NCBI RefSeq assembly: GCF_039634785.1
Contig: NZ_JBBIAB010000026.1
Coordinates: forward strand, 1 to 64,000
Direction of reading: 5' to 3'
Length of the DNA stretch: 64,000 bases
From: Tistrella mobilis
Lineage (GTDB): Bacteria; Pseudomonadota; Alphaproteobacteria; Tistrellales; Tistrellaceae
Shown piece by piece: positions 3,630-42,449 of the stretch; positions within the stretch are counted from its first letter, which is position 1; each line of letters starts with the position of its first letter. The notes under the pieces were generated by a model. That model searched no databases and was not told the DNA's origin. It worked only from the letters and a program-made list of their open reading frames with translations. Made by a program: the position numbers and the translations under genes.

Positions 3630-4583
3630 ATGCAGCTTCGGAACGCAATGCGGGCCCGTCGGATGGTGGCCGGAGCCGCGGTGGCGGCGGCTCTGGTGAC
3701 GATGGCAACCCTTGCGGCGGCACAGACCGGGCTGCCGCCCCTTTCTGCGGGTGGGGCGTCTTCGGGTGGGGGCGAAACCACGGCCGCGCCCCGCCAGCTG
3801 CCGCCGATCCTGTCGGCCGCCCCGGTGCCGGGGCCGGTAAAGACCGGGCCGGATGCGCCGTCGCCCGAAGCCGCGCGCGGCGTGCTGGAGCCGGCGGCGG
3901 AGGCGGTGATTTCGGCCGAGATCGCCGGGCGGATCGTCGATCTGCCGGTGACCGAAGGCGCGGACTTTGCCAAAGGCGCCCTGCTGGTGCGGTTCGACTG
4001 CACGCTCTACGAGGCCCAGCTGGCCCAGGCCCGTGCCCAGGCGGCAGGGGCCAAGGCCGCACTCGACAACGCCCGCAGCCTGGCGAAGCTTCAGTCGATC
4101 GGCGTGCTGGACGTGCAGCTGGCCGAGGCGAAGCTGGCCGAGGCATCGGCCGCCATCCGGCTGAGTTCCGCCACGGTGGAACGCTGCCGGATCGAGGCGC
4201 CCTATGCCGGCCGGGTGGTGCGCCGCCTGGCGCAGCCGGCCGAAGGCGTCGCCGCCGGTGACGACCTGCTGGCGATCGTCTCGGACGGGCTGCCGCGCAT
4301 CCGGCTGATCGTGCCCTCCACCTGGCTGGCCTGGCTGGTGCCCGGCATGCCGTTCGATTTCGCGGTCGACGAGACCGGCGGCACGGTCAAGGCGCAGGTC
4401 ACCGCCATCGGTGCCCGGGTCGATCAGGTGTCGCAGACCGTGCCGGTGCTGGCGGCGATCGAGGGGAAACCGACCGATCTGCTGCCGGGCATGAGCGGGA
4501 CCGCCCGTTTCGACCCTGCCGCACGGCCCGCCGGCCCCGCCGAGCCCGTACCGCAGGCCAAGCCGCAAGGGACGCCGAAATGA
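3630..4583 (+). CDS. Periplasmic adaptor (HlyD/RND membrane-fusion protein)
   Basis: This 317-residue protein has an N-terminal signal or anchor (MVAGAAVAAALVTMATLAAA) followed by a Pro/Gly-rich linker. It then has a split lipoyl/barrel-sandwich domain with a helical hairpin between (YEAQLAQARAQAAGAKAALD; return strand IEAPYAGRVVRR), the plan of membrane-fusion proteins. It is short for the family, with little C-terminal membrane-proximal domain. Such proteins bridge an inner-membrane exporter to a TolC-type channel. Its stop overlaps the next start by four bases (ATGA), so the gene is translationally coupled to 4580-6130. It is the first gene of a three-gene operon dedicated, by context, to exporting the giant surface protein. 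Confidence 0.88.
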   Translation: MQLRNAMRARRMVAGAAVAAALVTMATLAAAQTGLPPLSAGGASSGGGETTAAPRQLPPILSAAPVPGPVKTGPDAPSPEAARGVLEPAAEAVISAEIAGRIVDLPVTEGADFAKGALLVRFDCTLYEAQLAQARAQAAGAKAALDNARSLAKLQSIGVLDVQLAEAKLAEASAAIRLSSATVERCRIEAPYAGRVVRRLAQPAEGVAAGDDLLAIVSDGLPRIRLIVPSTWLAWLVPGMPFDFAVDETGGTVKAQVTAIGARVDQVSQTVPVLAAIEGKPTDLLPGMSGTARFDPAARPAGPAEPVPQAKPQGTPK

Positions 4584-6130
4584 ACGCCGATCCCCGGCCG
4601 CAGCCGCCCAAGATCGATCTGCAGAAGCTGGCCGCCGCGGCGGCGAAGCCGGGTGCATCTGCCGCCGGTGGAGTGGCCGCCGGGGGAGCGGCAGCCGATC
4701 CGGCGCGCGGCCGGTCGGCGATCCTGTTCTCGATCATGCTGTCGCTGGAACGCGCCGCCCGGCGCGCGCCGGATGTGCAGAGCCTGCGCTATGTGATCGT
4801 CAACGAAACCCGCCGTCTGCTGCCCTATCGCCAGGCGGCGCTTGCCGAGGGCGCGATCCGCCCGAAACCCGTCGCCCTGTCGGACGTGCCGGGGGTGGAG
4901 CGCACGGCGCCCTATGTCACCTGGCTGGAACGGGTGCTGGGCCATCTGGCCGCCGCCCATCGCGACCAGGTGAAGGCGCTGAAGGCGGCGCCGGCGCCTG
5001 CACCGGCGGCACAGCCGCTGGCCGGAGCCGCACCGGCGCCGGCGCCCGAGGCCGAGCTGCTGAAGCCGCGGCTGGTGACGCCCGCCGATCTGCCGCAGGA
5101 ACTGGCCGAGGCCTGGCCGGAGCTGGCCGCCCCCCATGCGCTGCTCTGCCCGCTAGCCGATCGCGAGGGCCAGGTGCGCGGCTGGCTGTGGCTGGCCCGC
5201 GATACCGGTTTCGCCCCCGCCGATCAGGTGCTGGCCGCCCAGCTGGCCGATGCCTATGCCCATGCCTGGCTGGCGCTGGCCGGCCGCGGTGCCGGTCGGC
5301 GGCGGCTGCCGCGGCCGCGCTGGCTGGTGCTGGGGCTGGTGGCGGCCGCCGTTGCCGCCGGCTTCATTCCGGTGCCGCAAAGCGTGCTGGCGCCGGCCGA
5401 GGTGTCGGCCAGCGATCCGGCGACCGTCGCCTCGCCGCTGGACGGGGTGGTGCAGGCGATCGAGGTGCAGCCCAACCAGCGGGTCGAGGCCGGCGACCTG
5501 CTGCTGACGCTTGATCCGACCAATCTTCAGGCCGAGGTGGCGGTGGCACGGCGCACGCTGGAAATCGCCGAGGCCGAACTGCGCCGCGCGCGCCAGGGTG
5601 CCTTCAACGACCGCGATGCCGGCGCACAGATCGCCCTGCTGGAAGCCCGCGCCCGGCTGCGCCAGGCGGAGCTGGAGTATGCCGAACAGCGCCTGGCCAG
5701 GGTGGAGGTGCGTGCCGAACGCCCGGGCATCGTGCTGTTCACCCGCGCCGACGACTGGATCGGCCGGCCGGTGCAGACCGGCCAGCGGATCATGACCATC
5801 GCCGATCCGTCCCGGGCCGAGATCCGCGTGGAACTGCCGGTGGGCGAGGCGATCCGGCTGGAGCCGGGCGCGCCGGTGCAGCTGTTCCTGGATGCCCGGC
5901 CGCTGGAGCCGGTGGCCGGGCGGATGACCAGCCTGAGCTATACGGCTGAGCAGACCCCGGGCGGCATTCTGGCCTATGAGCTGAAGGCCCGGCTGGACCA
6001 GCCGGCGGGGGAGGCCCTGCCCAGGGTGGGGCTGCGCGGCACCGCCAAGGTCTATGGCGCGGATGTGCCGCTGGCCTTCTATCTGTTCCGCAGGCCGCTG
6101 GCGGCGCTGCGCCAGCATACCGGGTTCTAG
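4580..6130 (+). CDS. HlyD-type adaptor with a GAF-like cytoplasmic N-terminus
   Basis: The 516 residues fall into three parts. Residues 1-240 are soluble and look like a divergent GAF-like domain: RRLLPYRQAAL near residue 80 and the closing strand GQVRGWLWLAR near 200, split by an Ala/Pro-rich insert at about 135-160. One membrane span lies at about 246-262. A periplasmic HlyD portion follows: lipoyl half TVASPLDGVVQAIEVQPNQ, coiled helices, then RPGIVLFTRADDWIGRPV. The cytoplasmic domain suggests that ligand, partner or redox status could gate the exporter; that is inference. It overlaps the upstream adaptor by 4 bp and is 3 bp from the M50 gene. Relatives are often annotated simply as HlyD or efflux adaptor proteins. 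Confidence 0.85.
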   Translation: MNADPRPQPPKIDLQKLAAAAAKPGASAAGGVAAGGAAADPARGRSAILFSIMLSLERAARRAPDVQSLRYVIVNETRRLLPYRQAALAEGAIRPKPVALSDVPGVERTAPYVTWLERVLGHLAAAHRDQVKALKAAPAPAPAAQPLAGAAPAPAPEAELLKPRLVTPADLPQELAEAWPELAAPHALLCPLADREGQVRGWLWLARDTGFAPADQVLAAQLADAYAHAWLALAGRGAGRRRLPRPRWLVLGLVAAAVAAGFIPVPQSVLAPAEVSASDPATVASPLDGVVQAIEVQPNQRVEAGDLLLTLDPTNLQAEVAVARRTLEIAEAELRRARQGAFNDRDAGAQIALLEARARLRQAELEYAEQRLARVEVRAERPGIVLFTRADDWIGRPVQTGQRIMTIADPSRAEIRVELPVGEAIRLEPGAPVQLFLDARPLEPVAGRMTSLSYTAEQTPGGILAYELKARLDQPAGEALPRVGLRGTAKVYGADVPLAFYLFRRPLAALRQHTGF

Positions 6131-6133
6131 GCC

Positions 6134-8326
6134 ATGGTCGCATCCGTTCAGGGCAGCGCGCCGGGGGGGCCGACCATCTCGTTCGGGGGCGGCGCGGGCG
6201 GCCAGCAGCAGGCCAAGCCGGTACCGCGGCTGCGCGAGGATCTGAAACTGCTGCCGGGCCCCACCGATCTGGACGGCAGCCCCAGCTGGACGATCCTGGA
6301 TCCGGCGCGCGGGCGCTATTACAGCCTGTCGCCCCAGGCGGTGGCGCTGCTGGGCGCCTGGGATCAGGGCATGCCCGACAGGGTTCTGGCCCGGGCCATG
6401 GCCGCCTCTCGCCTGCCGCTGGAGCTGAGCGATGTGGACGAGCTGGCCCGTTTCCTGATCGCCAACAATCTGGTCGCGGGCGACGAGCCGGGGATGAGCG
6501 GCAGCTATCTTCGCCAGCGCAAGGCCGCGAAGCGCAGCGCCTTTTCCTGGATGCTGCACAATTATCTGTTCGTGCGCGTGCCGCTGGTCCGCCCCGATAT
6601 GTGGCTGGACGGGCTGACGCCGCTTGGCCGGATGATGTTCTCCAAAGGGGCGGGGCTTACCCTGCTCACTCTGGTCGCCGTCGCGCTTTATCTGGTCGGG
6701 CGGCAGTGGGATGTGTTCCTGCACACCTTCACCAGCTTCCTGACGCTTGAAGGGGCGGTGTGGTTCGGCCTGGCGATGGTCGTGGCCAAGGTGCTGCACG
6801 AAATGGGCCACGCCCTGGCCGCCAAGCGCTTCGGCTGCCGGGTGCATTCCATGGGCGTCGCCCTGCTGGTGATGATGCCGGTGCTTTATACCGATGTCAG
6901 CGACGCCTGGCGGCTGCCGGAACGCCACCGGCGGCTGATCATCGGTGCCGCCGGCATGGCGGTGGAGCTGGGCATCGCCGCAATCGCCACCATTCTTTGG
7001 ACGATGATGCCCGACGGGCCGGCACGCTCGGCGGTGTTCTTTCTGGCGGCGGTGTCGTGGTTCATGACCCTGCTGGTCAATCTGAATCCGCTGATGCGCT
7101 TCGACGGCTATTACCTGCTGTCGGATCTGATCGGCGTGCGCAACCTGCAGGGCCGCGGCTTCGCGCTGGCCCGCTGGCATCTGCGCGAAACCCTGTTCGG
7201 CCTGGGGCGCGAGCCGCCGGAAGTGCTGCCGCCGCGCACCCGCCACGCCGTGCTGCTTTATGCCTATGGCGCCTGGATCTGGCGGTTCTTCCTGTTCCTG
7301 GGCATCGCGGTGCTGGTCTATCACGCCTTCTTCAAGGTGCTGGGCATCATGCTGGCGGCGGTGGAGGTGTGCTGGTTCCTGGCGATGCCGGCGCTGCGCG
7401 AAATCGGCGAATGGTGGAAGGCGAGGGACGAGATGCGGATGAACCGGGCCATGGCCCGCAGCCTGGCGGTGCTGGCGCTGCTGATCGGGCTCGCCTTCGT
7501 GCCCTGGCAGGGCGATATCGGCCTGCCGGCGATGCTGGAGGCATCGGCCAGCCCGCGGCTGCATCCGCCGGCACCGGCACGGGTGGTGGAGGTGCCAGTG
7601 GCGGCAGGGGCGCGCGTGACCGCCGGCCAGCCGGTGGTGGTGCTCGACAACCCCGATCTGGACCGGAAGATCGAGATGATCCGCCTGGAGCTGGACGTGA
7701 CCCAGAGGCTGATCCAGCGCCAGGCCGCCAGCGCCGCCACCGCCGCCGAGGTGGGTGTGCTGGAAGGGCGGCTGGCCGCCCGGCTGGCGGAGCTGGACGG
7801 GCTGATGGCAGAGCGCGCCCGGCTGGTGGTGCGCGCGCCGCAGGACGGCATCTTCCGCGACCCGCCGGCCGATCTGATGCCGGGATTGTGGGTGTCCCCC
7901 GCACGGGTGCTGGGGCTGGTGGTCGCCGCCGAGGGCGGGCGGATCGAGGCCTATGTCCGGGGCGAGGATCTGCCGCGGCTGCAGGTCGGCGCCCGCGGCC
8001 GGTTCGTGACCGACGACCCCGCGCGCGACCCGCTGCCGGTGGTGGTGACGGCCGTGTCCGAAACGGCCGTCGATGCCCTGGATCAGCCGGCCCTGGCCAG
8101 CCAGAATGGCGGGCCGATCGCCACCGAGCTGGATCACGAGCGCCGCCCCGTGCCGCGCGGCGCAGTCTATCGGGTGTGGCTGGAACCCGATGCCGGCGCC
8201 GGGCTGCCCGCCGGCCAGACGCTGGCCCTGCGGGGCATGGTGCGGATCGACGCACCGGCGGAAAGCTTCGCCGCCAGCCTGTGGCGCCGGGTGATCGCCG
8301 TCGCCATCCGCGAAAGCGGCTTCTGA
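6134..8326 (+). CDS. PqqD-like / M50 site-2-protease-like / HlyD fusion membrane protein
   Basis: This is a 730-residue inner-membrane protein. Residues about 35-110 resemble a PqqD-like peptide-binding domain. A multi-span M50 region follows with an intact zinc motif H222-E-M-G-H226 and a downstream N318-P-L-M-R-F-D324-G that supplies the third ligand in site-2 proteases. More membrane spans run to about residue 455. From about 480 onward there is a periplasmic lipoyl/HlyD module with a helical hairpin (EMIRLELDVTQRLIQRQA) and return strand RAPQDGIFRDPPADLM. This domain order is known from uncharacterised putative peptide zinc metalloproteases. With two further adaptors before it and no ABC ATPase anywhere near, it is the likely inner-membrane core of the export machine and may also process the cargo. 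ATG 6134 follows the previous stop after 3 bp. Confidence 0.87.
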   Translation: MVASVQGSAPGGPTISFGGGAGGQQQAKPVPRLREDLKLLPGPTDLDGSPSWTILDPARGRYYSLSPQAVALLGAWDQGMPDRVLARAMAASRLPLELSDVDELARFLIANNLVAGDEPGMSGSYLRQRKAAKRSAFSWMLHNYLFVRVPLVRPDMWLDGLTPLGRMMFSKGAGLTLLTLVAVALYLVGRQWDVFLHTFTSFLTLEGAVWFGLAMVVAKVLHEMGHALAAKRFGCRVHSMGVALLVMMPVLYTDVSDAWRLPERHRRLIIGAAGMAVELGIAAIATILWTMMPDGPARSAVFFLAAVSWFMTLLVNLNPLMRFDGYYLLSDLIGVRNLQGRGFALARWHLRETLFGLGREPPEVLPPRTRHAVLLYAYGAWIWRFFLFLGIAVLVYHAFFKVLGIMLAAVEVCWFLAMPALREIGEWWKARDEMRMNRAMARSLAVLALLIGLAFVPWQGDIGLPAMLEASASPRLHPPAPARVVEVPVAAGARVTAGQPVVVLDNPDLDRKIEMIRLELDVTQRLIQRQAASAATAAEVGVLEGRLAARLAELDGLMAERARLVVRAPQDGIFRDPPADLMPGLWVSPARVLGLVVAAEGGRIEAYVRGEDLPRLQVGARGRFVTDDPARDPLPVVVTAVSETAVDALDQPALASQNGGPIATELDHERRPVPRGAVYRVWLEPDAGAGLPAGQTLALRGMVRIDAPAESFAASLWRRVIAVAIRESGF

Positions 8327-9415: not shown

Positions 9416-10015
9416 TCAGCCCTGCGGCGGATAAATGCCGTAGAGCGGGGTGATGTATTGCAGCACCGCGTAAGGCTGCATGATCTGGACCGGGACGTTC
9501 ATGCCCGACGAGCCGACGGCGACCTGGCCGTTCATCTGCACCGGCAGGGTCGCTTCCGGGTCCTGTTTGGCGACGAACAGATTGGCGGGCCGGGTGGGGG
9601 AACCGGGCGCATTGGTCTGCACGAAATTACCATTGCCCAGGACGACGTTATTGGCCGGCTCGGACTCGGTCGCGTCGGTGGTGGCGACCGGAATTGCGCC
9701 CTGCAGCTCTGCCGTAACGGTATGGGTGTGATGGGCCAGATTATTGCCGGTCAGCGTGACGGTCTCGCTGCCGCCGGTCTGGCCCAGGGCATAGTTCGAC
9801 AGGCCGGGCCCCTGGCCCGCGCCCAGGGGCGTGCGGCCGATCAGGTTGGGCAGGGCAAAGGTGGTCTGGCCATCGCCGCCGAAAGTCGTACCGATCAGGC
9901 CGAACAGGGCGTCGTTCTGCGCGATCGACAGCAACTGGCCGTTGCAGAAGGTATAGCCGCGCGGTGCAAAGCTCGGCGCCCAGAGGAACACGGCCCCCAG
10001 ATAAACTCCGTCCAT
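9416..10015 (-). CDS. Phage tail-collar domain protein (third of three)
   Basis: This 199-residue protein has an N-terminal collar domain: FAPRGYTFCNGQLLSIAQN, then GTTFGGDGQTTFALPNL and a His-rich LAHHTHTV. A variable middle follows, and it ends in the shared QPYAVLQYITPLYGIYPP motif. Proteins of this type (also annotated microcystin-dependent protein, MdpB) are beta-rich, resemble the tips of phage short tail fibres and occur in bacteria outside prophages, usually as tandem triplets. There is no signal peptide. AGGAG eight bases upstream supports ATG 10015. It is the last gene of a four-gene operon divergent from the giant surface protein and ends at a strong terminator. The molecular role is unknown. 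Confidence 0.85.
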   Translation of the reverse strand: MDGVYLGAVFLWAPSFAPRGYTFCNGQLLSIAQNDALFGLIGTTFGGDGQTTFALPNLIGRTPLGAGQGPGLSNYALGQTGGSETVTLTGNNLAHHTHTVTAELQGAIPVATTDATESEPANNVVLGNGNFVQTNAPGSPTRPANLFVAKQDPEATLPVQMNGQVAVGSSGMNVPVQIMQPYAVLQYITPLYGIYPPQG

Positions 10016-10047
10016 CGGTTCTCTCCTGTTTTCGCGTCGGGGGCCGG

Positions 10048-10641: not shown

Positions 10642-10673
10642 CTTTCCGAAACCTTATGGATGGTGGAGACCAT

Positions 10674-10707
10674 GTGGATGGCGACCGGGCCCGTGGATGG
10701 CGACCGG
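10674..10707. repeat. Short direct repeat between collar genes
   Basis: GTGGATGGCGACCGG occurs twice with a 19-bp period in the 100-bp gap between the first and second collar genes. No function is suggested. Confidence 0.6.
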
Positions 10708-10741
10708 AGCAGTGCCGGCCCGGCTGCGCAGCGGAAACCGG

Positions 10742-11802: not shown

Positions 11803-11852
11803 CCCACATCCCGATGGTTGACCGGCGGCAGACCCCGCGGGATGCAGCCCCG

Positions 11853-11905: not shown

Positions 11906-11965
11906 ATTGTATGCATCTGCGGCGCATTCCCGCCGTTTCGCTTGGCGGTTGCCGTGCGTGATTAA

Positions 11966-12307: not shown

Positions 12308-15300
12308 ATGCGCCGCTTTCGTCGTCGGGGAGATCATGCCAGCCGTCACATCACCGGGCCGCGCCGCCCGGGCCGGCGGGGGGCGCTGGCCCAGGCGCTT
12401 GAACCACGGATGATGTTCGATGCCGCCGGTGTCGCCACCGCGGCAGAGGCGCTGCAGGATCAGGCCGCCCAGGATGCCGCGCAGGAACTGCACCCCGATA
12501 CCGCGGGCGACGGCAGTGCGGCCGATACCGGCCATCAGGCCGATGCCCATGACGCTGCCGCCCTGGTGGAGACCGCCGCCCAGGGCGGCGATGACGGATC
12601 GGATGTGACGGCGGCCCCCGCCGCGGCGGGCGACCGGCGCGAGGTCGCCTTCATCGACACCCGCGTCACCGACTGGCAGACCCTGGCCGCCGGCCTGGCC
12701 CAGGATGTCGAAATCGTGGTGCTGGATGCCGGCCGCGACGGGCTGGAACAGATCGCCGACTGGATGGCCGAACAGTCGGGGGCAGTGGATGCCATCCACA
12801 TCATTTCGGAAGGCAGTGTCGGCGAAATCTGGCTGGGATCTTCCACCCTCTCGGACAGGAATATCGATGACCGGGCCGGCGACCTGGCGGTGATCGGCGC
12901 CGGCCTGGCCGAGGATGGCGACATCCTGCTTTACGGCTGCGACGTAGCCGGCGGCAGCGACGGCCTGGCCTTTCTGGGCCGGCTGGCAGAGCTGACCGGC
13001 GCCGATGTCGCCGCCTCGGACGATGCCACCGGCAGCGTCGCCGCCAATGGCGGTGGCCGTTTCGGCGACTGGGATCTGGAAGTGTCGATCGGCCGGGTCG
13101 ACACCACCATCGCGGTGACCGAGGACACCCGCGCCGGCTATGACGGCCTGATGGCGACCTTCACCGCCGGCACCGAGGCCCAGCTGGAAACCGCGATCGT
13201 CAATGCCAATGCGGCGGCCGGCACCGACCAGATCGACATCACCGCCGATATCACGCTGGGCAGCGGCGCCACCGGTTTCACCACGATCACCGACAATGTC
13301 GTGATCCAGTCCAGCACCGCGGCGACCCGCGACATTCTGGCCGCCAACATCACCGATGGCAGCGTGTTCACGGTCAGCGATGCCACGGTCACCTTTGCGC
13401 GGCTGGCGATCGATGGTGCGGCGAAGACCTCGGGCGGCGGTGCCGGCATCAATTTCTCGTCCACCGGCTCGGACACGCTGACGCTGACCGACATGACCAT
13501 GACCGGTCTGCATGCCACCCAAGGCGGCGCGATCTTTATCAGCGGCGGTCAGCTGGCGATGACCGGCACCAACAGCTTCGTCGACAACCAGGCGACCAGC
13601 GGCGCCGGTGGCGCGATCTATATTTCCGGCGGAAATTTCATTCACACGGTCACCGGCCAGTTCACCACCAACACCGCGACCACCCAGGGCGGTGCGATCT
13701 ATCAGACCAGTGCGGCCGGCGCCACGCTGAATGTGACCGACAGCAGTTTCGATCAGAACAGTGCGACCCAGGCCGGTGGTGCGATCCGCATTGAGGGGAA
13801 TACCTCCGGCAACATCACCTTCTCCGTGGCCGATAGCAGCTTTAGTGGCAATACGGGGGGCTTGGGTGGCGCGATCTCGACGCGAACGGGCGGTGGGTCG
13901 ACCACAATCGAGCGGTCGACCTTCACTAGTAATGAAACGACTAACGGCAGCGGTGGCGGCGGCGCTGTCGAGTTGGGCGGCACAGCTACGGCTTCCGAGG
14001 CCTTCATTACTGATAGCACGTTTACACAGAACACGGCTAGCGGCACTGGGGGGAGTGGCGGTGCTGTCCTCATTGCGTCTAATGCCTTGGTTGATCTTGA
14101 TATTGTTCGATCTACCTTCGATCGCAATGTTGCGACCAGCAGCGGTAGTGGTGGCGCCGTCGCACTACTCGGCACCAGCAGCACCGTTTCTGTGGTCAAT
14201 TCTACCTTTTCCGGGAACACAGCGACCTTCGGCAGCGCGATCGAAAGCACCTCGGCGCTCACCGTGGCGCACAGCACCTTTTCGGGCAACAGCGCGACCA
14301 ACGGCATGAATAACGGCACGATCGATTCCTATGGCGGCTCGGTCAGTGTCAGCCATACGATTCTGGCCAACAACACCGGCTGGGGCGTGAACGTCACCGG
14401 CGGCAGTGCGACCAATGTCGGCTGGAACATCTATTTCGGCAACAGCCTTGACAATAACGGCTTGGATGCGGGTCCCGGTACCGATCTGACCACCGATCCC
14501 AATCTGGGGGCGCTGGCGGATAATGGCGGCTATACCCAGACGATGAAGCCGGGCACCGGCAGCTCGGCGATCGATGCCGGCAATGCCTCGATCACCGGCC
14601 AGCCCGCCACCGACCAGACCGGCGCCACCCGCATTTCCGGCAGCGCCATCGATATCGGTGCGGTCGAAGCTGTGAACGACACCACCCCGGTGCTGGGCGG
14701 CCCGCGGACCGTGAGCTGGACCGAAGGCGACGCGCCGGTCATCCTGCTGCCCGATATCACGGTCGCCGATGACGACGGCGACCTGATCACCTCGGCGCGG
14801 GTCTGGATCTCCAACCCGCATGATGGCGATGTGCTCGCGATCACCTCGCCCGGGCCCTACAGTGCCAGCGTGGCGATGGAAGGCGGCCTTCTCGTCCTGA
14901 CGCTGACCGGCAGCGGCACGGCGGCGCAGATGCAGGCGGCGCTGCGGACGGTCACCTATTCGTCCACCTCCGACGCCCCCACCTGGGGCAATACCGGATC
15001 GGCCTATACCCCCGATGCCGCCGGCTCGCGCATCCTCCGCGTCACCGTCACCGATGCCGACGGCGCCACCTCGGACGAGTTGGTCGGCAGCGGCGTCCAG
15101 GTTACCAGTGTGGACGACGATCCACCGGCGATTTCCGCCGACACCTTCGTCTATACCCCTGGTGCCTATGGGTCAGACGGCTATGCGAACTTCGCGCCGG
15201 ACCTGTTCCTCATCGACGACACGGCGATGATAAAATCGGTGACGGTGCAGCTGGTCGCCTCCCCGGACGGGTCCTTGGAGCGCCCGCGCATTCAGGGAAC

Positions 15301-39300: not shown

Positions 39301-40774
39301 CATCGATCTTGTCCTCACCGCCACCGATGCGGGCGGGCTGACCGCAAGCCGCAGCGTGACCATCACGGTCGGCGACGTGGACGAGAGCCCGAGCGCGCCG
39401 GTGCTGGATGGCGGCAGCGTGGCCGAGAACGCGGCCGGCGGCATCATCGGCCAGGTCTCGGTCGACGATACCGGCGTGCCCGGCGAGGTCACCTGGACGG
39501 TCGACGACGATCGCTTCGAGATCGTCGAGGTGGATGGTGTCCGGACGCTGAAGCTGAAGGACGGCGTGTCTCTCGACCACGAGGCCGAGGGCTCGGTGCG
39601 GCTGGTGATCAGCGTCACCAATGCCGGCGGTATCACCGCCCGCAGCGTGGTCGACATCGCGGTCACCGACGTCAACGAGGCACCGGTTCTGGCCGAACCC
39701 GGTACCGTCCGGATCCTTGCCACCGGCCAGGTGGTGATCGACGGGTCGGTGCTGGAGGCGACGGATCCGGATGGCGATGCGCTGGTCTTCCGCTTCGACG
39801 GCGAGACCCGCTACGGCACTTTCTATCTGAACGGCGTGGCGCAGAGTGCGGGCTTCACGGTGTCGGCCGCCGACATCGCCGCGGGCCGGCTGGTCTATCG
39901 ACCGAGTGTCGACACCGCCGCGGCCGGTGCGCCCGGCCGGCCGGACTTCGTCGAGACGGTGACCGTGACGGCAGGCGACGGCGCGCTGGAGAGCGCATCG
40001 GTCACCCTGACCGTCGCGATCGAGCCGATCCCGATCGACGTCCTGCCGGAAGAGAACGAGGTGCCGGTTGCGGTGGTCATCCCGATCCCGCCGGACGTCA
40101 CCCTGGCCGACTCGTCCTTCGGCCGCATCGAGCTGGTGTTGCGCGATCGCTTCTATGAAACCGCGATCGTCGAATATGCCCGCGAGGCCCATCGTGCCGC
40201 TTCGGGCTTCGAGCGCGAGCGGATCCTGGGCGACTACACCGCGCTGATGGCCCGCAGCCTGATCTCGGATCTCGCCATCGACACCACCTTCGACAGCGAA
40301 CTGGTCACCACCTTCTTCGGTGATCTGCTGCGGCGGGTGGATGCCATCGCGGCGACCGGCGTGTCGGTCGACAGGGTGGTGGTCAATGTGGTGCGCGAGG
40401 GTGAGCCGGTGCCGGCCGAGGCCGGTCCGCCGGTCGTCTTCCCGGCCGAGGCGCTGCCGCAGCCGCCGGCACCCGCCGGCGATGGCGAAGGCCAGCAGGG
40501 CGATGCCCCTGAGGGCCAGACCTCCGAGGAGAATGGCCAGCAGGGGGCGGATCTTCGCGGCCAGACCGCGGACGATACGCTGGCCTGGATCGAACCCGAT
40601 CTGGTGCTGCTGGCCCGGCTGATCGATGGTGACGACGCCGCGACCGATGCGGTCTTGGCGGAGGCCGGCTTCTCTGCCAGCCTGCGCCAGGCTGCAACCA
40701 GCTTCGACCGCGAGGTCGAGGCCCTGGCCGGGGCACTGGGACAGGGGCCTGCGGTGAGGGTGGCGCGTGGCTGA
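12308..40774 (+). CDS. Giant LEPR/DUF4347 cadherin-like surface protein, about 9,488 residues
   Basis: One open frame of 28.5 kb. Layout by residue: Arg-rich leader with LEPRMMFDAAG at 31-41; DUF4347 about 112-275 (IHIISEG, LLYGCDVAGG); right-handed beta-helix about 281-790 ending in a choice-of-anchor-Q-like ADNGGYTQTM...IDAG segment; cadherin/CSPG-like beta-sandwiches; two delta-60 blocks (about 1995-2390 and 2665-3075); more CSPG/VCBS-like modules; about 50 cadherin-like repeats (about 4,370-9,130); a final sandwich; and an acidic, Gln-rich, helical C-terminus. Repeats carry acidic calcium-type motifs (DPD, DVNEAP), so an extended, calcium-stiffened, secreted adhesin is likely. There are no RTX nonapeptides, no LPXTG and no ordinary signal peptide. 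ATG 12308 is chosen over GTG 12257 because GGGGGACGGG precedes it. A TolC gene follows directly and adaptor genes lie upstream. Confidence 0.93.
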   Translation: MRRFRRRGDHASRHITGPRRPGRRGALAQALEPRMMFDAAGVATAAEALQDQAAQDAAQELHPDTAGDGSAADTGHQADAHDAAALVETAAQGGDDGSDVTAAPAAAGDRREVAFIDTRVTDWQTLAAGLAQDVEIVVLDAGRDGLEQIADWMAEQSGAVDAIHIISEGSVGEIWLGSSTLSDRNIDDRAGDLAVIGAGLAEDGDILLYGCDVAGGSDGLAFLGRLAELTGADVAASDDATGSVAANGGGRFGDWDLEVSIGRVDTTIAVTEDTRAGYDGLMATFTAGTEAQLETAIVNANAAAGTDQIDITADITLGSGATGFTTITDNVVIQSSTAATRDILAANITDGSVFTVSDATVTFARLAIDGAAKTSGGGAGINFSSTGSDTLTLTDMTMTGLHATQGGAIFISGGQLAMTGTNSFVDNQATSGAGGAIYISGGNFIHTVTGQFTTNTATTQGGAIYQTSAAGATLNVTDSSFDQNSATQAGGAIRIEGNTSGNITFSVADSSFSGNTGGLGGAISTRTGGGSTTIERSTFTSNETTNGSGGGGAVELGGTATASEAFITDSTFTQNTASGTGGSGGAVLIASNALVDLDIVRSTFDRNVATSSGSGGAVALLGTSSTVSVVNSTFSGNTATFGSAIESTSALTVAHSTFSGNSATNGMNNGTIDSYGGSVSVSHTILANNTGWGVNVTGGSATNVGWNIYFGNSLDNNGLDAGPGTDLTTDPNLGALADNGGYTQTMKPGTGSSAIDAGNASITGQPATDQTGATRISGSAIDIGAVEAVNDTTPVLGGPRTVSWTEGDAPVILLPDITVADDDGDLITSARVWISNPHDGDVLAITSPGPYSASVAMEGGLLVLTLTGSGTAAQMQAALRTVTYSSTSDAPTWGNTGSAYTPDAAGSRILRVTVTDADGATSDELVGSGVQVTSVDDDPPAISADTFVYTPGAYGSDGYANFAPDLFLIDDTAMIKSVTVQLVASPDGSLERPRIQGTYAGINIAWDADSKKYTFTGTSPTGTASLNAFQEILRNLDYKNLSSGATVDTTDRIIRYTVTDANDQVGTFDLTIEIDKTPTVATNTGTTVAEGGSGSITTAMLEASDDYATGADLIYTVAALSHLTVSLNGSTLSTGGTFTQQDIDDGLVTFQHDGGETAGTLTFTLKQSSANYSDSVQHSFTVNTTPVNDAPVVNDTSASPLFSAGGSPVAVAESATIVDVDSGNLTSVVLTLTTRPGGTSDRIAMSTIGADNASNYGINVDPDNATGTLTLSGTASVAQYQTVLRGVVYAYTGATASMPGGDRVVSIVATDDSGDSATQASAAFERTVEVDAPPKVDTNTGTTLDEGGSTTITSAMLSSSDTEDTDPADVTYTLTTAPAVGTLKLNGTALSVNDTFTQKDIDDGLLTYEHDGSQTTSGSFGFSVKDTTNHTVSGQTFAITVTAVNDAPEITAPGSIAVTEDTETALTGISISDADAGTSDVTVTFTVGEGELAATSTADVTVGGTATALTLTGSVADINAFIAASALTFTPAADATGNVTLTVDVDDGGNTGSGGAKTDTATVTLAVSAVNDAPTIDGSQVVLTTTNENTMSTTYSVSDWLTDVNYADPDSGAVSGIAITGIVGNGAWQYTTDGDNWYGLGTAASDSAALLFAATTQFRFVPDNNRGGPASLTFRGWDQTSGTATSGSTLRTGDASSTGGSTAYSVEDSRAAMVVTQINDAPTLSTTDITLDPVDRNDVSTPITVSDLLTDGGYGDVDANPESGIAITALTGTGRWEYSTDGTNWHAVGTVSVNASLLLAAGAQLRYDPAGDTAETATISFRAWDQTIGTATNGSTRGTADTTITGSSSAYSSALATGSMEVTVVNEAPVLTVPGSLTVNEDTDLQITGISIADTDDLGQDYVLTITAPGGSFTATGTADVTVAAGGQTLILTGSRADINAFISGGNVTYRPGVNVTGTVDLSVSVSDQDAALPGTDADTVTVTVDPVNDAPDVYTINDGVDVVAAPEPLSTPTWMLDAPGGGHYVVSSRTTGGDAYQNVLVYRYNADGSIDTSYGTDGAAYFAGTVPNAVKVLASGELIIAGRAVSDSSLVVTRLATDGSVVSGFPITVSQAPSSFGPVDIEIDGSDRIYVTATLTPTSGDTSTVVFRFTADGTADGVFNVGASIPGSEQALDSVIQPDGKVVTLAAQGRDLIVYRHNADRTLDTSFGTGGYLIIDTDLLGGAGAQGVSVQADGSILVASATEDSGFPGQQVPVIWRLTADGALDTGFGVNGAVTGEAAHTVSFAFAPDGGIIVVGTISFAADISTTVQRFTPDGVLDAGFGRDGGFTIGGTEFPLNHTSVRIDADTGEILLGGNHYDSALQPADIYFARYDATGQPVFDADPAAYTENGAPVVIAPTIAVDDVDLGDADTLDGFTVSLTRDGGADGQDQFSAADGGTLDALTEGQALVVSGTTIGTVVTNSAGALVLSLNAAATRALVNEALRQISYVNSSDAPPASVDLVWTVNDGNSGTQGTGGATEGTLTTTVAITTVNDTPVITVPAGAAITVTEDTATAITGISFADADAGSGTVEVTLSVDKGTITATSGAGVTVTDGTNAITLSGTIADINAFIAAQGVTFQTDTDDTGDVTLTVDIDDLGNSGGASETASETVTITVTPVNDAPDVTTMPDGVVVVDGPGDMDSVGGIVGLPDGSYYQFGVDTDVASNMIVVARYDADGKLDTSFGTNGIVTLDSFGTFRPGTALLQSNGKLLISGTVSPSGGGGNAGMLISLNDDGSLDEGFGTSGVVVLSDTGVEFSLFKVTADATGRLLVAGMNFTGAAGTTDGLLYRLLDDGSIDTAFNGGAPLAIDLGGNETLLSVAVQDDGKIVVAGANDDGAILQRYNADGTLDTGFGSSGTVTIDDPDILESSQIVLPQSAGGMIVVNMHVDADTGLPVTTLVRLTDDGSVDGSFGSGGSLVFTGNLTTDATLLADGSMVFVGTHMTIGGGTPSATASIIKIGADGQLDTSFGTNGEVTFGDDLRSFTISSLTIDDNGDLLLGGSYLGCGCGGDEIFAARFTTDGTPVTGFNMDPTHVEDGGFTAIDPEIDIYDPELWLADDHDGMVITITRDGGADADDLFGAISGGTLGDLTEGGDLTVGGIVIGTVTTNAGGTLVLTLNADATYDLVNEAARQIGYATANDTPPASVDLLWSVDDGNTGAQGSGGALIGTLVSTVNIEAANDAPTVTDLSASPVYTAGGAAVNVVGSAVLDDIDSTMLTSVVLTLTTRPGGTSDNISLSSSAATYADGHGISYASYDPATGTLTLSGTASVADYQAVLQGVVFAYTGATASMPGGDRVVSITATDDSGDTDTQTSVAFERTIEVNAPPKIDSNAGTTLDEGDSTTITSAMLSSSDMEDTDPADVTYTLTTAPAAGTLKLDGTVLGVGDTFTQKDIDDGLVTYEHDGSEGASDSFGFSVADATNLTVSEQSFAITVTAVNDAPEITAPASIDVTEDTETALTGISISDVDAGTGEVTVTFTVGEGELAATSTADVTVGGTATALTLTGTVADINAFITGSALTFTPVANASGDVTLTIDVDDGGNTGSGGAKTDTATVTLAVSAVNDAPEITAPGSISVTEDVETALTGISISDVDVGSNDVTVTLDVATGTLSATSGSGVVVGGTAASLTLTGTVTAINAFIAASGVGYTTAENATADVTLTVTVDDGGNSGSGGAETDTTTVTLDVTAVNDAPVVTDLSASPVYTAGGDPVLMVGSAALSDVDSTMLTGVVVTFTTRPGGTSDSILLAVDAGLHADEHGITRIYDETSGTLTFSGTASLADYQTVLQGVAFAYMGEAATMPGGDRVVSIVATDDSGDTATQTSVAFERTIEVNAMPKVDTNTGTTVDEGGSTTITSAMLSSSDSEDTDPADVIYTLTTAPASGTLKLDGTALEVGDTFTQKDIDDGLLTYEHDGSEGASGGFGFSVEDTTNLTLSSQSFAITISAVNDAPEITAPASIDVTEDTETALTGISISDVDAGTGEVTVTFTVGEGELAATSTTEVTVGGTATALTLTGTVADINAFITGSALTFTPVANASGDVTLTIDVDDGGNTGSGGAKTDTATVTLAVSAVNDAPEITAPASIDVTEDTETALTGISISDVDVGSNDVTVTLDVATGQLSATSGSGVVVGGTATSLTLTGTVTAINAFIAASGVGYTTAANATTDVTLTVTVDDGGNTGSGGSQTDTATVTLDVTAVNDAPEITAPASIDVTEDTETALTGISISDVDAGTGEVTVTFTVGEGELAATSTADVTVGGTATALTLTGTVADINAFLSGGALTFTPVANANGDVTLTVDVTDSGNTGSGGAQTDTATVTLSVSAVNDQPTAPALDNDEVDENDAGAVIGRVTATDADGDTLTYTVDDARFEIVSVDGVQLLRLKEGVSLDYETEPTVDLVLTVTDPDNASNTTNVTITIRDDGVVTPLPVLTGGNVTENDAGAVVGTLPTLDGISYTVDDTRFEIVESDGRTVLKLKDGTSLDREAAAEVTVTITATDADNETRTADVLIRVANVNEAPSQPVLTGGTVAENAAGVAVGTLASTDPDAGDTLTYTVDDSRFEVVGNVLKLKDGVSLDREAAATIDLVVTVTDGDGLTAERTVTVTVSNVNEAPSVPVFTGDGTVAENDAGAVIGTVTTSDPDVDDLAGLSVDDARFEIVDGQLKLKDGVSLDHESEPTITLVLTATDGGGLTATRLLTLTVTDVNEAPNAPVLDGNVVVENDIGAVIGNVSGGDPDDGDSVTYTVDDARFEIVGGQLKLKDGEYLDYEAATSVDLVITATDVAGLQTQSTVSVKVLDDTNSAATPVLSNTTVTENEAGAVVGTLPVATLNGYIVDDARFEVVFIGITPTLKLKDGISLDHEAEPTVTLQITSIYVNDDAKTGTFVITVADANEQVGAPVLDNDSVAENAEGAVIGRVSATDPDDASTSFGQKTFTVDDARFEIVDGLLKLKDGISLDHETEATVTLNIQVTDGGGLSDSLVATINVTDLNETPSTPVVSGATVAENAAGAVIGTVTSTDPDAGDDLTYTVNDDRFEIVDVAGDMVLKLKDGVSLDHEAAGSVALVITATDTGGLSAERVMLVTVTDVNEAPTTPVLSSDTVQGGDAGAIVGRVTATDPDDATTQEGRLTFSVDDSRFEIVGDMLKLKAGESLSVGDEPTVSLVITATDGLGLASTQTVVLTVLPDATPPVPALPDGIVSENTPGGVIGPVRFTDPVDPGVDVSLTVDDARFEIVDVDGVPTLKLKDGISLDREAEASVTLVITATTIEGSRSNVVVIAVDNVNETPTQPVLTGSTVAENAAGAEIGTVTGSDPDVGDTLTFTVDDDRFEIVDGSLKLKDGVFLDHEAEASVDLVITATDADGLTATRSVTITVTDMNEAPTQPALTGSTVAENAAGAVIGTVTGSDPDDGDSVTFTVDDDRFEIVDGSLKLKDGVSLDHETEASVDLVITATDGDGLTATRSVTITVTDVNEAPAQPVLSGSTVAENAAGAVIGTVTGSDPDDGDTLTFTVDDDRFEIVDGSLKLKDGVSLDHETEASVDLVITATDADGLTATRSVTITVTDVNEAPAQPALSDSTVAENAAGAVIGTVTGSDPDDGDSVTFTVDDDRFEIVDGSLKLKDGISLDHEAEPTVDLVITATDGDGLTATRSVTITVTDVNEAPTQPALTGSTVAENAAGAVIGTVTGSDPDDGDSVTFTVDDDRFEIVDGSLKLKDGVSLDHEAEASVDLVITATDGDGLTATRSVTITVTDVNEAPAQPVLSGSTVAENAAGAVIGTVTGSDPDDGDTLTFTVDDDRFEIVDGSLKLKDGVFLDHEAEASVDLVITATDADGLTATRSVTITVTDVNEAPTQPALSDSTVAENAAGAVIGTVTGSDPDDGDSVTFTVDDDRFEIVDGSLKLKDGIALDYETEPSVDLVITATDADGLTATRAVTITVVDDGIVAPTPVLDGGIVAENAAGAIIGSLPDIGDGSYAVDDARFEIVERDGVQLLKLKDGISLDHEAAAEVVVRLTATGGDGGTAEGDVTIRVTDVNEAPAQPVLDAATVAENAAGATIGRVTATDPDDPAVSFGQKTFTVDDARFEIVGGVLKLKDGVSLDHEAEATVDLVLTVTDGGGLTASRTVTITVSDVNEAPAAPSLSGTTVAENAAGAAVGVVTCTDPDGDALTYTVDDTRFEIVDIDGAQTLKLKDGIALDHEGEPEVTVVITARDPGGLSTPMIVTLTVGDVNEAPAAPVLSGTVLPENTAGAVVGTVTGSDPDAGDSVTFTVDDARFEIVDGQLKLKDGVSVDFETEASIDLVITATDGDGLTATRAVTITVVDDAVTPVPPVLTGGSVAENAAGAVAGTLPDPAGGSFSVDDARFEIVDLDGTWTLKLKDGVALDHEAAASVTLTLTSTGSDGGTLTSTVVITVGDVNEAPAQPVLDAATVAENAPGATIGRVTASDPDDPSVSFGQKTFSVDDARFEIVGGVLKLKDGVSLDHEAGASIDLVLTVTDGGGLTASRTVTITVTDVNEAPAQPVLSGATVAENAAGAVIGTVTGSDPDAGDTLTFSVDDSRFEIVDGTLKLKDGIALDHEVEASVQLTITATDAAGLAASRSVTITVGDVNEAPTAPALDGNSVVENLPGAVIGVVSAGDPDAGDTLTYTVDDARFEIVGDVLKLKAGISLDFETEPSVDLVITATDAGGLTTSTTVQVTVIDDGVTAPLPVLSGGVVAENAAGALIGTLPGGAGVSYTVDDARFEIIDRDGVPTLKLKDGVSVDHEAEASITLRITSQVSEGDTATAEVLIRVTDVNEAPAAPTVGGSSLPENTAGAVVGRVSAVDPDDAATSAGQLTYTVDDARFEIVSGVLKLKDGITLDHEAEPSVDLVLTVTDGGGLTASRTVTITVTDVNEAPAQPVVSGTTVTENVAGAVVGTVSGTDPDAGDTLTFTVDDARFEIVSGVLKLKDGVSLDHETTAELTLVITATDAGGLTASRLVTVAVADVNEAPAAPTLDGSVVPEGVAGAGIGTVTATDPDDDVLTYTVDDARFEIVDGVLKLKDGISLDAETEASVDLVITATDPDGLSASATVTITVLDDGVTPTVPVLTGRTVAENLAGGVIGTLPDPNGGSFSVDDARFEIVDLDGTWTLKLKDGVALDHEAAASIRLVITSTAVDDTTLSSTVTITVSDVNEVPGAPALDAATVAENAAGAVIGRVTASDPDSGSTANGRLTYTVDDARFEIVGGVLKLKDGVSLDHEAAATVDLVLTVTDGGGLTASRTVTITVSDVNEAPAAPSVSGTGVAENAPGAVVGAVTCTDPDGDALTFTVDDSRFEIVDIDGVQTLKLKDGIALDHESDPTVTLVVTARDPGGLATAMIVTLAVGDVNEAPTVPVVTGDAVQGGSEGAIVGRVSASDPDDPLTANGRLTYTVDDARFEIVGGVLKLKDGVVISAADEASVSLVITVTDGGGLSASTTVDLTVRPDTTPPVPVIADGRVPENAPGAVVGVIGFLEDVDPGVDVTVSVDDARFEVVTQDGSFVLKLKDGVALDHEAADRVTLLLTTTTIEGTRSSVVTIAVGDVNEAPSAPVLSETVVPEDAQVIGRVTATDPDAAEALTFSVNDPRFEIVGGELRLVAGETLDHEGEPFVDLVITVTDKGGLTASTAVRLTVTDVPEAPTTPVLEGGDIPENEPGVAIGTVTADDPDGKGLTFTVDDDRFEVVAGVLKLKDGVSLDYETEGSVSVVITATAANGFSASGTYVLQVLDGNDAPTAPVLDGSTVPENQAGAVIGTVTATDQDADDELTFTVDDDRFEIVDGQLKLKDGVSLDYETEPTVTLVLTVTDREAISASTTVTIGVIDDGIVPPTPVLDGTTVPENAAGAVVGTLPDVAGASYTVDDARFEVVELDGSWTLKLKDGIALDHEAAAEITLRITASGADGGTASALVLVRVLDVDEAPAAPVLDGDTVAENAAGGVIGRVTATDPDGADTGNGRLTYGVDDARFEIVGGVLKLKDGVALDHEAEPVVDLVITVTDGGGLSATRSVTITVTDVNEAPAAPVVSGSTVAENAAGAVIGSVTAGDPDGDALTFMVDDARFEIVDGQLKLKDGIALDHEAEPSVTLVLTATDAGGLSATRVVVVTVTDVNEAPAQPVLSASLVGENQPGAVIGDVSAGDPDGDALTFSVDDARFEIVDGQLKLKDGVALDFETEPTVDLVITAQDAGGLTGSLTVTITVVDDGMQPVVPVLTGSTVAENAAGAVIGTLPDPEGGSFTVDDARFEIVEADGSFVLKLKDGIALDHEAAATIDLVITSTDIEGHSLDAPITIRVTNVNEAPAAPVLAGDTVAENAAGGVIGRVTTTDPDAGDTASYAVDDARFEIVGGVLKLKDGVSLDHEAEPVVDLVITVTDAGGLVATRSVTITVTDVNEAPAAPVVSGSTVAENAAGAVIGTVTATDPDGDALSYAVDDARFEIVDGQLKLKDGIALDHEAEPSVTLVLTATDGDGLATTSLITLTVTNVNEAPTAPAVAGDAVQGGEAGAVVGRVTAGDPDQGDALTYTVDDARFEVVDGVLKLKDGVTLDAGDTTSVDLVVTVTDRGGLSAATAITVTVRADATPPVPVLADGRVDENTQGGIVGAVGFLEDVDPGVEVTLSVNDARFEIVEIDGQAVLKLKDGVSLDHEAADRITLVITATTIEGSRSAAVVIAVGDVNEAPAVPVIDNRTVAENAPGAVVGTITVSDPDAAASDFGSLEVSVDDARFEVVERDGALVLKLKDGVSLDHETGLGVTLTLTVTDGGGLSTSRTVEILVTDVPEAPTAPVLDGATVAENAAGAVIGTVTAGDPDVGEAPVITVDDARFEIVDGQLKLKDGLALDHEGEPTVTLVLTATDATGLATSTTVVITVGDVNEAPSAPVLLDDRVGENEPGGVVGGISVDDPDLGDTVTVTVDDARFEVVEVDGALVLKLKDGVALDYETDGTIDLVLTATDAGGLTASRSVTITVGDVDESPSAPVLDGGSVAENAAGGIIGQVSVDDTGVPGEVTWTVDDDRFEIVEVDGVRTLKLKDGVSLDHEAEGSVRLVISVTNAGGITARSVVDIAVTDVNEAPVLAEPGTVRILATGQVVIDGSVLEATDPDGDALVFRFDGETRYGTFYLNGVAQSAGFTVSAADIAAGRLVYRPSVDTAAAGAPGRPDFVETVTVTAGDGALESASVTLTVAIEPIPIDVLPEENEVPVAVVIPIPPDVTLADSSFGRIELVLRDRFYETAIVEYAREAHRAASGFERERILGDYTALMARSLISDLAIDTTFDSELVTTFFGDLLRRVDAIAATGVSVDRVVVNVVREGEPVPAEAGPPVVFPAEALPQPPAPAGDGEGQQGDAPEGQTSEENGQQGADLRGQTADDTLAWIEPDLVLLARLIDGDDAATDAVLAEAGFSASLRQAATSFDREVEALAGALGQGPAVRVARG
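13150..14680 (+). other. Beta-helix segment of the giant protein
   Basis: Short turns repeat motifs such as GGAIYISGG, GGAIYQTSA, GGAIRIEG and NSTFSGNTA, as in Pmp/CSLREA-type right-handed beta-helices, closing with LGALADNGGYTQTMKPGTGS and SAIDAGNA. Between about 13790 and 14230 codon choice is much less GC-biased (many AGT, ACT, AAT, GTT, CTT codons) than on either side. Confidence 0.75.
18290..19470 (+). repeat. First delta-60-type block
   Basis: Roughly 50-60-residue units carry the phrase RYNADGSIDTSYGTDG, then RHNADRTLDTSFGTGG and LTADGALDTGFGVNG, alternating with VQPDGKVV/VQADGSIL-type strands. Units of this type are thought to fold as a beta-propeller-like domain. It is embedded between cadherin-like modules. 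Confidence 0.75.
20300..21530 (+). repeat. Second delta-60-type block
   Basis: The same unit type as the block at 18.3 kb: RYDADGKLDTSFGTNG, LNDDGSLDEGFGTSG, RYNADGTLDTGFGSSG and IGADGQLDTSFGTNG. It is preceded and followed by VTEDT- and GLAxxDxD-type sandwich modules that are also paralogous to those around the first block, so the two blocks probably arose by duplication of a module group. Confidence 0.75.
21985..25040 (+). repeat. Tandem 1.53-kb module duplication
   Basis: A four-module unit beginning VTDLSASPVYTAGG occurs at about 21985 and again exactly 1,530 bp later at about 23515. Each holds a TTRPGGTSD module, a CSPG-like module (TLDEGDSTTITSAMLSSSD / TVDEGGSTTITSAMLSSSD) and VTEDTETALTGISISD modules. 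A partial, more diverged version lies at 15.88-17.03 kb. Confidence 0.8.
25420..39690 (+). repeat. Array of about 50 cadherin-like repeats (about 95 residues each)
   Basis: Each repeat has the order PVLSGxTVAENAAGAVIG, DPDxGD, VDDxRFEIV, LKLKDGxxLDxE and TDVNEAP. I count 50 RFEIV/RFEVV cores by eye. Every fourth repeat is a variant joined by a DDG or TPP linker and lacking the DPD loop. Confidence 0.85.
28300..30260 (+). repeat. Homogenised block of seven 282-bp repeats
   Basis: Seven consecutive cadherin-like units with the core RFEIVDGSLKLKDG are spaced exactly 282 bp apart (cores at about 28411, 28693, 28975, 29257, 29539, 29821 and 30103) and are nearly identical in DNA, unlike the rest of the array. 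Confidence 0.9.
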
Positions 40775-40880
40775 CAGGACGACTGCGACGGCGGGCTGCG
40801 ACCGGCCCGCCGGCCATTTCGGGACGGTATCGACGATCATGACGCGCGGCAGAACGACCGCGGACAGACGGGGTGAGCAT

Positions 40881-42449
40881 ATGCGGGGGCAGGCAGCAAT
40901 GAACGGGATCGGGCGGCACGGCCGCAAGGCGGTGGCGGGCGTGCTGGCCGCGGCGCTGCTCGCGGGGTGCACCGTGACGCCGGAGCCGATCGCGCCGGAG
41001 ATGACCCAGGCGCGGATTTCGGCCGATCTTGCGCGGATGTTCTCGAACCAGGAGCCGGTGAGCGGCCGGTTGAGCCTGCACGAGGCCATGGCGCGGGCCA
41101 TCCTCTACAATCTGGACGGCCGGCTCCGCACCATGGAACAGGCGCTGAGCCAGCGGCAGCTGGATCTGTCGCGCTGGGACATGCTGCCCTCGCTGGCCGC
41201 CTCGGCGGGCTTCGTCGGGCGTGACAACGTTTCGGCGTCGAGCAGCGAGAACGTCGCGACCGGCACCGAATCGCTGGTGCCCTCGACCTCGACCGAGCGC
41301 AACCGCCGGGTCGCCGACCTCAATATGTCGTGGAACATCCTCGATTTCGGCGTCTCTTACGTCACCGCCCAGCAGAATGCCGACCGGTCGCTGATCGCCG
41401 CCGAACAGCGCCGCCGGGTGGTGCATACCATCATCCAGGACGTCCGTTCGGCCTATTGGCGGGCGGTGGCGGCGGAGCGGGTGCTGTCGCGCATCGACCC
41501 GCTGATGACCCGGATCGAGAGTGCGCTCGCCTCGTCGGCCCAGATCGAGCGCCAGCAGCTGAGGGCGCCGACCGAGGCGCTGACCTATCGCCGCGGCCTG
41601 CTGGATGCCCTGCGCCAGCTTCAGGCGCAGAAGCGCGAACTGCGTCTGGCCAAGACCGAGCTGGCGGCGCTGATCAATCTGCGCCCGGGCGAGGACTTCA
41701 CGCTGGAGGCGCCCGAGACCCAGGCCGCCCTGCCGCCGGTGACCTCGTCGGCCGAAGACCTGGAAGTGCTGGCCCTGGCCAACCGGCCCGAGGTGCGCGA
41801 GCTGGACTATCAGACCCGCATCTCGCAGAAGGAAACCCGCAAGGCGCTGCTGCGGCTGCTGCCGGGCATCGAGCTCGATCTCGGCGCCCATTACGACAGC
41901 AACAAGTATCTGGTGAACAACGACTGGGCCGATTACGGCGTCAAGGTCACCTGGAACCTGCTCAACATCCTGCGCATCCCCGGCGCCATGGCGGTCGCCG
42001 AGGCGAACGAAGAGGTGGTCGACGCCCGGCGCATGGCGATCAGCATGGCGGTGCTGGCCCAGGTGCATGTCGCCCAGACCAATTACGACGAGGCGCGGAT
42101 CCAGTATCAGACCGCCCGCGAACTGGCCGATCTGGATGCCCGCATCCTGGACCAGGCCAAGGCCGCGGCCGGTACCAGCATGGGCGAACTGCAGGTCATC
42201 CAGACCGAGCTTGCCTCGGTGCAGAGCCAGCTGCGCCGCGATCTGGCCTTTGCCGACGCCAACAACGCCTTTGGGCGCCTGTTCCTGTCGATCGGCGCCG
42301 ACCCGCTGCCCGAGGCGCTGGAGGCGCCCACGGTCGCGACGCTGACCCAGGCGATCGACCGGACCGAGACCAACTGGCGCGAGGGCCGGCCGACTTTTGC
42401 GCCCGTGCCGCCGGCAGTGGACAAGCCGAAGCTCGCTTCCGCCGACTGA
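40881..42449 (+). CDS. TolC-family outer-membrane efflux lipoprotein
   Basis: The protein is 522 residues from ATG 40881. A lipoprotein signal ends in LLAGC and is followed by two OEP halves with long coiled helices. Sequences such as HTIIQDVRSAYWRAVAAERV and VLAQVHVAQTNYDEARIQYQ match TolC/OprM helices, and ADLNMSWNILDFG and KVTWNLLNIL match the membrane beta-strands. It would form the outer-membrane channel for the exporter. The frame is open back to a GTG at 40767 that overlaps the giant gene's stop; ATG 40899 is an alternative start that gives a textbook lipoprotein signal. Its position directly after the giant gene and before a terminator suggests co-transcription with the cargo. Confidence 0.92.
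   Translation: MRGQAAMNGIGRHGRKAVAGVLAAALLAGCTVTPEPIAPEMTQARISADLARMFSNQEPVSGRLSLHEAMARAILYNLDGRLRTMEQALSQRQLDLSRWDMLPSLAASAGFVGRDNVSASSSENVATGTESLVPSTSTERNRRVADLNMSWNILDFGVSYVTAQQNADRSLIAAEQRRRVVHTIIQDVRSAYWRAVAAERVLSRIDPLMTRIESALASSAQIERQQLRAPTEALTYRRGLLDALRQLQAQKRELRLAKTELAALINLRPGEDFTLEAPETQAALPPVTSSAEDLEVLALANRPEVRELDYQTRISQKETRKALLRLLPGIELDLGAHYDSNKYLVNNDWADYGVKVTWNLLNILRIPGAMAVAEANEEVVDARRMAISMAVLAQVHVAQTNYDEARIQYQTARELADLDARILDQAKAAAGTSMGELQVIQTELASVQSQLRRDLAFADANNAFGRLFLSIGADPLPEALEAPTVATLTQAIDRTETNWREGRPTFAPVPPAVDKPKLASAD

Follow-up and report, generated by a model that had tools for sequence, protein, structure and literature searches.

The locus studied here raises the question of how a giant surface protein might be carried out of the cell by a gene set that contains periplasmic adaptors, an outer-membrane protein and a membrane-embedded protease. 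The window (i.e., the whole stretch of DNA that was analysed, 64,000 nucleotides) encodes at 6134-8326 (+) an open reading frame of 730 aa, the ATG of which lies 3 nt downstream of the stop codon of the preceding HlyD gene. The original prediction had described this protein as a three-part fusion of PqqD-like, M50 and HlyD domains, and all three were recovered in our study, M50 and HlyD by Pfam and the RRE/PqqD part by fold. We refer to it as M50-HlyD; its parts are listed below.

6134..8326, plus strand: M50-HlyD fusion, 730 aa, seven predicted TM helices, N-in/C-out
6221..6487, plus strand: PqqD/RRE-like leader-binding domain (assigned by fold), residues ~30-118; fold match, PqqD HMM sub-threshold
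6644..7420, plus strand: M50 site-2-protease membrane core, residues ~171-429; PF02163, RseP/SpoIVFB/MjS2P folds
6797..6811, plus strand: HExGH zinc motif, HEMGH, residues 222-226; H222, E223 and H226 invariant in 83/83 sequences
7079..7108, plus strand: N316xxPxxxFDG325 motif with D324 as the expected third zinc ligand; N316, D324 and G325 invariant in 83/83
7502..8266, plus strand: HlyD/MFP periplasmic adaptor, residues 457-711; MacA/MexA/EmrA fold, Z up to 15.8
8267..8323, plus strand: C-terminal helix (712-729) ending RESGF, residues 712-730; E727 in 83/83, R726 in 77/83

The Pfam scores for M50 (31.1 bits, cut-off 27.2) and HlyD_3 (PF13437; 29.7 bits, cut-off 22.2) are above threshold. 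PqqD scored 14.0 bits at residues 52-91, below its cut-off of 23.4, and was matched weakly in 4 of 59 homologues. The full-length structure model was built from 59 aligned sequences (mean pLDDT 88.2) and, because its HlyD part filled the fold search, residues 1-433 were also folded separately (pLDDT 87.5, pTM 0.84). In the fold comparison, residues 29-121 resemble lasso-peptide B1 RRE domains with bound leader (6jx3, 5v1u, 5v1v; Z 8.4-9.1 over 80-83 residues) and, at Z 6.0, the sactipeptide enzyme 5wgg; residues 203-336 resemble the site-2 proteases RseP, SpoIVFB and MjS2P (Z 8.1-10.5); and the C-terminus resembles a MacA/MexA/EmrA/HlyD-type adaptor. In RiPP pathways, leader peptides are bound by RRE domains; site-2 proteases cleave inside the membrane. 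The modelled M50-HlyD has the RRE fold and may bind a leader in the same way, and the seven predicted TM helices would place this domain in the cytosol and the HlyD part in the periplasm.

The protein carries both hallmarks of an M50 site-2 protease, i.e., HExxH in a TM helix and a distal zinc-binding Asp in an N..P...DG context. H222, E223, H226, N316, D324 and G325 are identical in all 83 aligned sequences, most of which are only 35-48% identical to the window protein, and with the ORF so strongly conserved chance is excluded. The intact HEMGH at 222-226 is where it had been claimed, as is D324-G325 in the second motif; the asparagine given for the latter was N318, however, whereas the invariant residue is N316, and position 318 holds N in 46 of the sequences and S in the other 37. 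The geometry of the zinc site was read from the fold overlay: the predicted core overlays the site-2 proteases across both motifs, and the widely separated ligands that would have spoken against the original prediction were not seen. Two groups of M50-HlyD proteins can be distinguished: type A, the group of the window protein (>380 bits to it), and type B, a more distant group (<280 bits to it). The zinc ligands are also kept in ten type B proteins, with the Asp present as FDG or FDA. This conservation of all ligands in both types argues for a working zinc site, which does not necessarily imply that the cargo is cleaved; proteolysis by M50-HlyD is, at the level of sequence, plausible. A second M50-like stretch occurs in the genome (L002; G000:C16:29718-30674; 28% identity), with a T1SS-type ABC gene ~17 kb away and no clear operon around it on inspection (in L214).

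M50-HlyD is encoded together with the following features.

3630..4583, plus strand: HlyD1, a short RND_MFP-like periplasmic adaptor with a hydrophobic N-terminal segment; PF13437 61.8 bits, TIGR01730 109 bits (cut-off 94.9)
4580..6130, plus strand: GAF-HlyD, with a GAF-like cytosolic N-terminal domain, one TM and a periplasmic HlyD domain; PF13437 76.8 bits
12308..40774, plus strand: giant cargo with DUF4347 and cadherin/Ig repeats, likely ATG at 12308, about 9,488 aa; the ORF opens at 12257 and spans 9,505 aa
12398..12427, plus strand: LEPR leader motif LEPRMMFDAA (D-form), proposed recognition signal; motif statistics, NF012209 15.0 bits, cut-off 17
12644..13150, plus strand: DUF4347 domain of the cargo; PF14252 178.6 bits, above cut-off
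40767..42449, plus strand: OMF, a TolC-type outer-membrane efflux protein; PF02321 111.8 bits; part of most type A loci

All five genes (HlyD1, GAF-HlyD, M50-HlyD, the giant DUF4347/cadherin protein and the OMF) lie on one strand. The GAF domain of the window GAF-HlyD gave no Pfam match, and its annotation as GAF-like is taken from the literature, in which the GAF-HlyD family is described by Kamneva et al. (2015; PMC4452313). In public genomes, 80 loci with homologues of the machine's four parts were found, the closest (98%; a copy in L084) from Tistrella mobilis, and the module of OMF, HlyD1, GAF-HlyD and M50-HlyD recurs in alpha- and gammaproteobacteria, Nitrospirota and other groups. HlyD1 is present in most type A loci and GAF-HlyD homologues adjoin M50-HlyD in the loci examined. 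Clustering of ORFs of at least 120 aa yielded no further family, an ATPase included, common to most loci, and a scan for promoter and terminator patterns remained at chance level. Between the machine and the cargo of the window lie three phage-tail-collar-domain (PF07484) genes (9416-11335, minus strand), accompanied by a DUF6916 gene (11479-11916). In genomes that lack the machine, collar-domain genes were likewise seen close to DUF4347 proteins (L140:8572-9258, L143:7489-8043, L144:10306-10851, L150:3378-3929).

Our results lend support to the proposed machine for recognising a cargo and passing it on, with the giant protein at 12257-40774 as the likely cargo. It is acidic, with 5 Cys and 0 RTX repeats, and cargos generally are Cys-poor and acidic, with RTX repeats mostly absent. 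The low Cys content, acidity and repeats would fit an extracellular protein that is exported unfolded. Among 397 Pseudomonadota genomes, DUF4347 was detected in 59 of the 64 with a type A M50-HlyD and in 22 of the 333 without one, a comparison that ignores kinship; counted by genus, which guards only partially against kinship, the figures are 33/35 and 18/198. Among the matches listed, a DUF4347 gene lies on the same contig within 40 kb of the type A M50-HlyD gene in at least 38 of the 64 genomes and within 10 kb in at least 29, counts that are lowered by fragmented assemblies. Six type A genomes had no or only a marginal DUF4347; in five of these (G302, G357, G284, G214, G267) a motif-bearing protein of 1,691-4,381 aa adjoins the machine, and in the sixth (G191), with two machines, a cargo was not found. 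In the window, a 5,661-aa open frame runs antisense to the cargo repeats (15173-32158, minus strand), which is probably a by-product of GC-rich repeats. Sulfotransferase-like genes were noted beside DUF4347 proteins that have no LEPR leader (L147:7135-7953, with similar ORFs in L142 and L150; the family assignment was tested for L147).

The N-termini of the cargos carry a motif, LExRxx[FLY]D[AG], that is similar to LEPR-XLL. The pattern was set on the N-termini of 60 DUF4347 proteins, of which 44 matched the first form; a wider pattern, L[EDQ]xRxx[FLYI][DSN][GAPS], written after variants such as LERR and LEQR had been seen, matched 56 of the 60 and 55 of the 57 DUF4347 proteins of type A genomes. 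In a DUF4347 protein of G225 and in one of G229, the motif was not found. It is also absent from all 15 DUF4347 proteins read from genomes that lack type A; these have bare starts or Sec-type signals and no adjoining machine. The LEPR motif follows the machine and not DUF4347. DUF4347 itself was rejected as the signal because LEPR giants without a clear DUF4347 occur in five machine genomes and the 15 DUF4347 proteins elsewhere are motif-free.

The form of the leader also corresponds to the type of machine. Before scoring, the D-form had been forecast for DUF4347 proteins beside a type A machine and the S-form for those beside SecA2. On scoring, all 10 beside a type A machine were of the D-form and all 4 scoreable ones beside SecA2-linked loci of the S-form, with a scoring pattern that allowed M or I at position one (M stands there in two of the four S-forms). 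A fifth near-SecA2 N-terminus (L233) was left out of the S-form score because its upstream stretch contains another DUF4347 fragment. A protein of a type B genome (G182, L249) that had been forecast as S-form reads LEPRMLFAA, neither D nor S, and its adjacency to SecA2 is not established. Both this comparison and that of the six DUF4347-poor genomes used sequences new to the pattern. The match of leader to machine and the RRE fold point to recognition of the leader by the fusion protein. The motif could instead be a sorting or anchoring tag and not an export signal.

We consider it reasonably probable that the locus encodes a type-I-like exporter of giant surface proteins that is gated by a leader and has no dedicated ABC transporter, with M50-HlyD as its inner-membrane core. 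The cytosolic RRE/PqqD-like domain would read the N-terminal LEPR leader (LExRxx[FLY]D[AG]A...) of the giant protein and pass it to the seven-TM M50 core, where it would probably be cut or held at the zinc site, and the fused HlyD domain, HlyD1, GAF-HlyD and the TolC-type OMF would form the conduit outward. Energy might come from the housekeeping SecA/SecYEG, from the proton-motive force or from another ATPase. The computed basis is formed by the domains and folds, the conservation of the zinc site, the gene module, the co-occurrence of the cargo and the form of the leader relative to the type of machine; leader binding, cleavage, translocation through the complex and the energy source are what we infer.

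A central point is the inner-membrane step. A SecA homologue lies beside the type B M50-HlyD in 8 of 10 fetched loci, and the type A loci searched gave no SecA match. A single SecA is present in 46 of the 64 type A genomes, and 11 of 13 type-B-only genomes have at least two SecA_DEAD matches; the genome of the window has one full SecA and one match below the cut-off. An ABC transporter was also searched for in the module and none was found, with ABC genes in the flanks of a few loci. A hidden ABC transporter or SecA2 within the locus was rejected, as these searches of the module came back empty. Searches with T1SS ABC models in the 64 type A genomes revealed eight (G070, G160, G197, G214, G220, G296, G357, G489), some of them draft assemblies, with one SecA and no ABC transporter at T1SS level; this was judged from scores that stay under the curated cut-offs and lie close to general-exporter values. 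A dedicated ABC transporter or a second SecA is, therefore, apparently not required. A still stronger claim would be a distinct secretion system that dispenses with both an ABC transporter and a dedicated SecA, in which M50-HlyD is the inner-membrane translocator and export is signalled by the LEPR leader; in our opinion this is possible and on the doubtful side.

Less probably, M50-HlyD may process or tether the leader, while the inner membrane is crossed via the housekeeping Sec system or an ABC exporter encoded elsewhere and the HlyD and OMF proteins serve the periplasm and outer membrane only. No ATPase is conserved in the type A locus, T1SS-type ABC transporters do occur elsewhere in the genome of the window, and a SecA-driven step is plausible, as type B, which is related, makes use of a protein of the SecA family. 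However, the eight type A genomes that have neither a T1SS-level ABC transporter nor a second SecA argue against such a route, as do the LEPR leaders themselves, which, unlike Sec signals, have charged residues within the hydrophobic stretch (median longest uncharged run 9).

By analogy with the logic of LapA/LapG/LapD, the leader might alternatively be anchored in the M50/HlyD complex and signalling through GAF-HlyD might lead to cleavage and release, so that the locus would act as a switch for surface retention. We regard this as improbable. The partner protein with its GAF-like domain, as named by Kamneva et al. (2015), and the alanine-rich, DAAG-like residues of the leader are consistent with it. 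In L015 (10267-13272), moreover, a PAS/GGDEF/EAL protein directly follows the cargo; it has relatives in other loci, this family occurring in seven loci and a response-regulator-like family in eleven. Yet no such regulator was identified next to the cargo of the window, and export, too, would lead one to expect that leader form and machine correspond. Maturation of a small RiPP-like peptide by the M50 protein, with the giant protein as an incidental neighbour, is rejected as very improbable: the closest named models are indeed the daptide (NF041824) and LiaK/YydH epipeptide (NF058609) maturation proteases, but M50-HlyD scores far below their cut-offs (170.4 against 300 bits and 39 against 225, respectively), LEPR giants co-occur and co-locate with it across 35 genera, and no conserved short precursor gene was found among the clustered ORFs (of 120 aa and above).

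The favoured reading of a leader-gated exporter can be compared with several known systems. The two peptide proteases have a related M50 core, and NF041824 also spans the PqqD-like region (53-418) of M50-HlyD, but their substrates are short peptides and they lack a fused HlyD domain. The type I systems that secrete giant adhesins (LapA/LapBCE and SiiE type) likewise combine an adaptor and a TolC-type OMF with a giant, repeat-rich surface protein. In our case, however, the module contains no cognate ABC transporter, RTX repeats are mostly absent, including at the C-terminus of the window cargo, and the tag is N-terminal in place of a C-terminal signal. The LEPR-XLL domain (NF012209) similarly places an LEPR motif at the N-terminus of very large proteins; the window cargo, below the cut-off of this model, has FDAA instead of LLSA/LLSG, and two cargos from other loci exceed that cut-off (20.6 and 19.0 bits).

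A literature search on LEPR-XLL, on DUF4347 or PqqD together with M50/HlyD and on site-2 protease together with HlyD, with bioRxiv and most subscription papers outside its scope, returned only Kamneva et al. (2015) as relevant. This paper by Kamneva, Poudel and Ward (PMC4452313) reports M50-HlyD and GAF-HlyD proteins in loci that have a secondary SecA_DEAD protein and no ABC transporter, proposes the M50 protein as a membrane pore and terms the broader role completely unknown. That SecA_DEAD locus shares with the window M50-HlyD, GAF-HlyD, HlyD, sometimes an OMF and the lack of an ABC transporter in the locus; it differs from the branch of the window in its secondary SecA, and in the part of the text available a cargo, a leader motif and an RRE domain are not named. 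The view that known families do not explain the combination of domains is not borne out, as M50/HlyD proteins in T1SS-like loci were already described there, and the earlier interpretation as a whole is partly supported. The branch without this secondary SecA is a variant of a described, uncharacterised kind, and the assignment of leader and cargo is the new content. The start motif, an orphan that some of the largest proteins of bacteria carry, thereby gains a candidate reader, and an orphan machine gains a candidate cargo. As two leader forms are paired with two machine forms, the idea is directly testable. If export indeed proceeds without an ABC transporter or a dedicated SecA, the driving force for proteins of ~9,500 residues becomes a mechanistic question. 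Finally, the cargos in L015, L056, L065, L074 and L137, one of which adjoins a type B machine, share a C-terminal segment of the type SLPAWGxFDPLPxLT.
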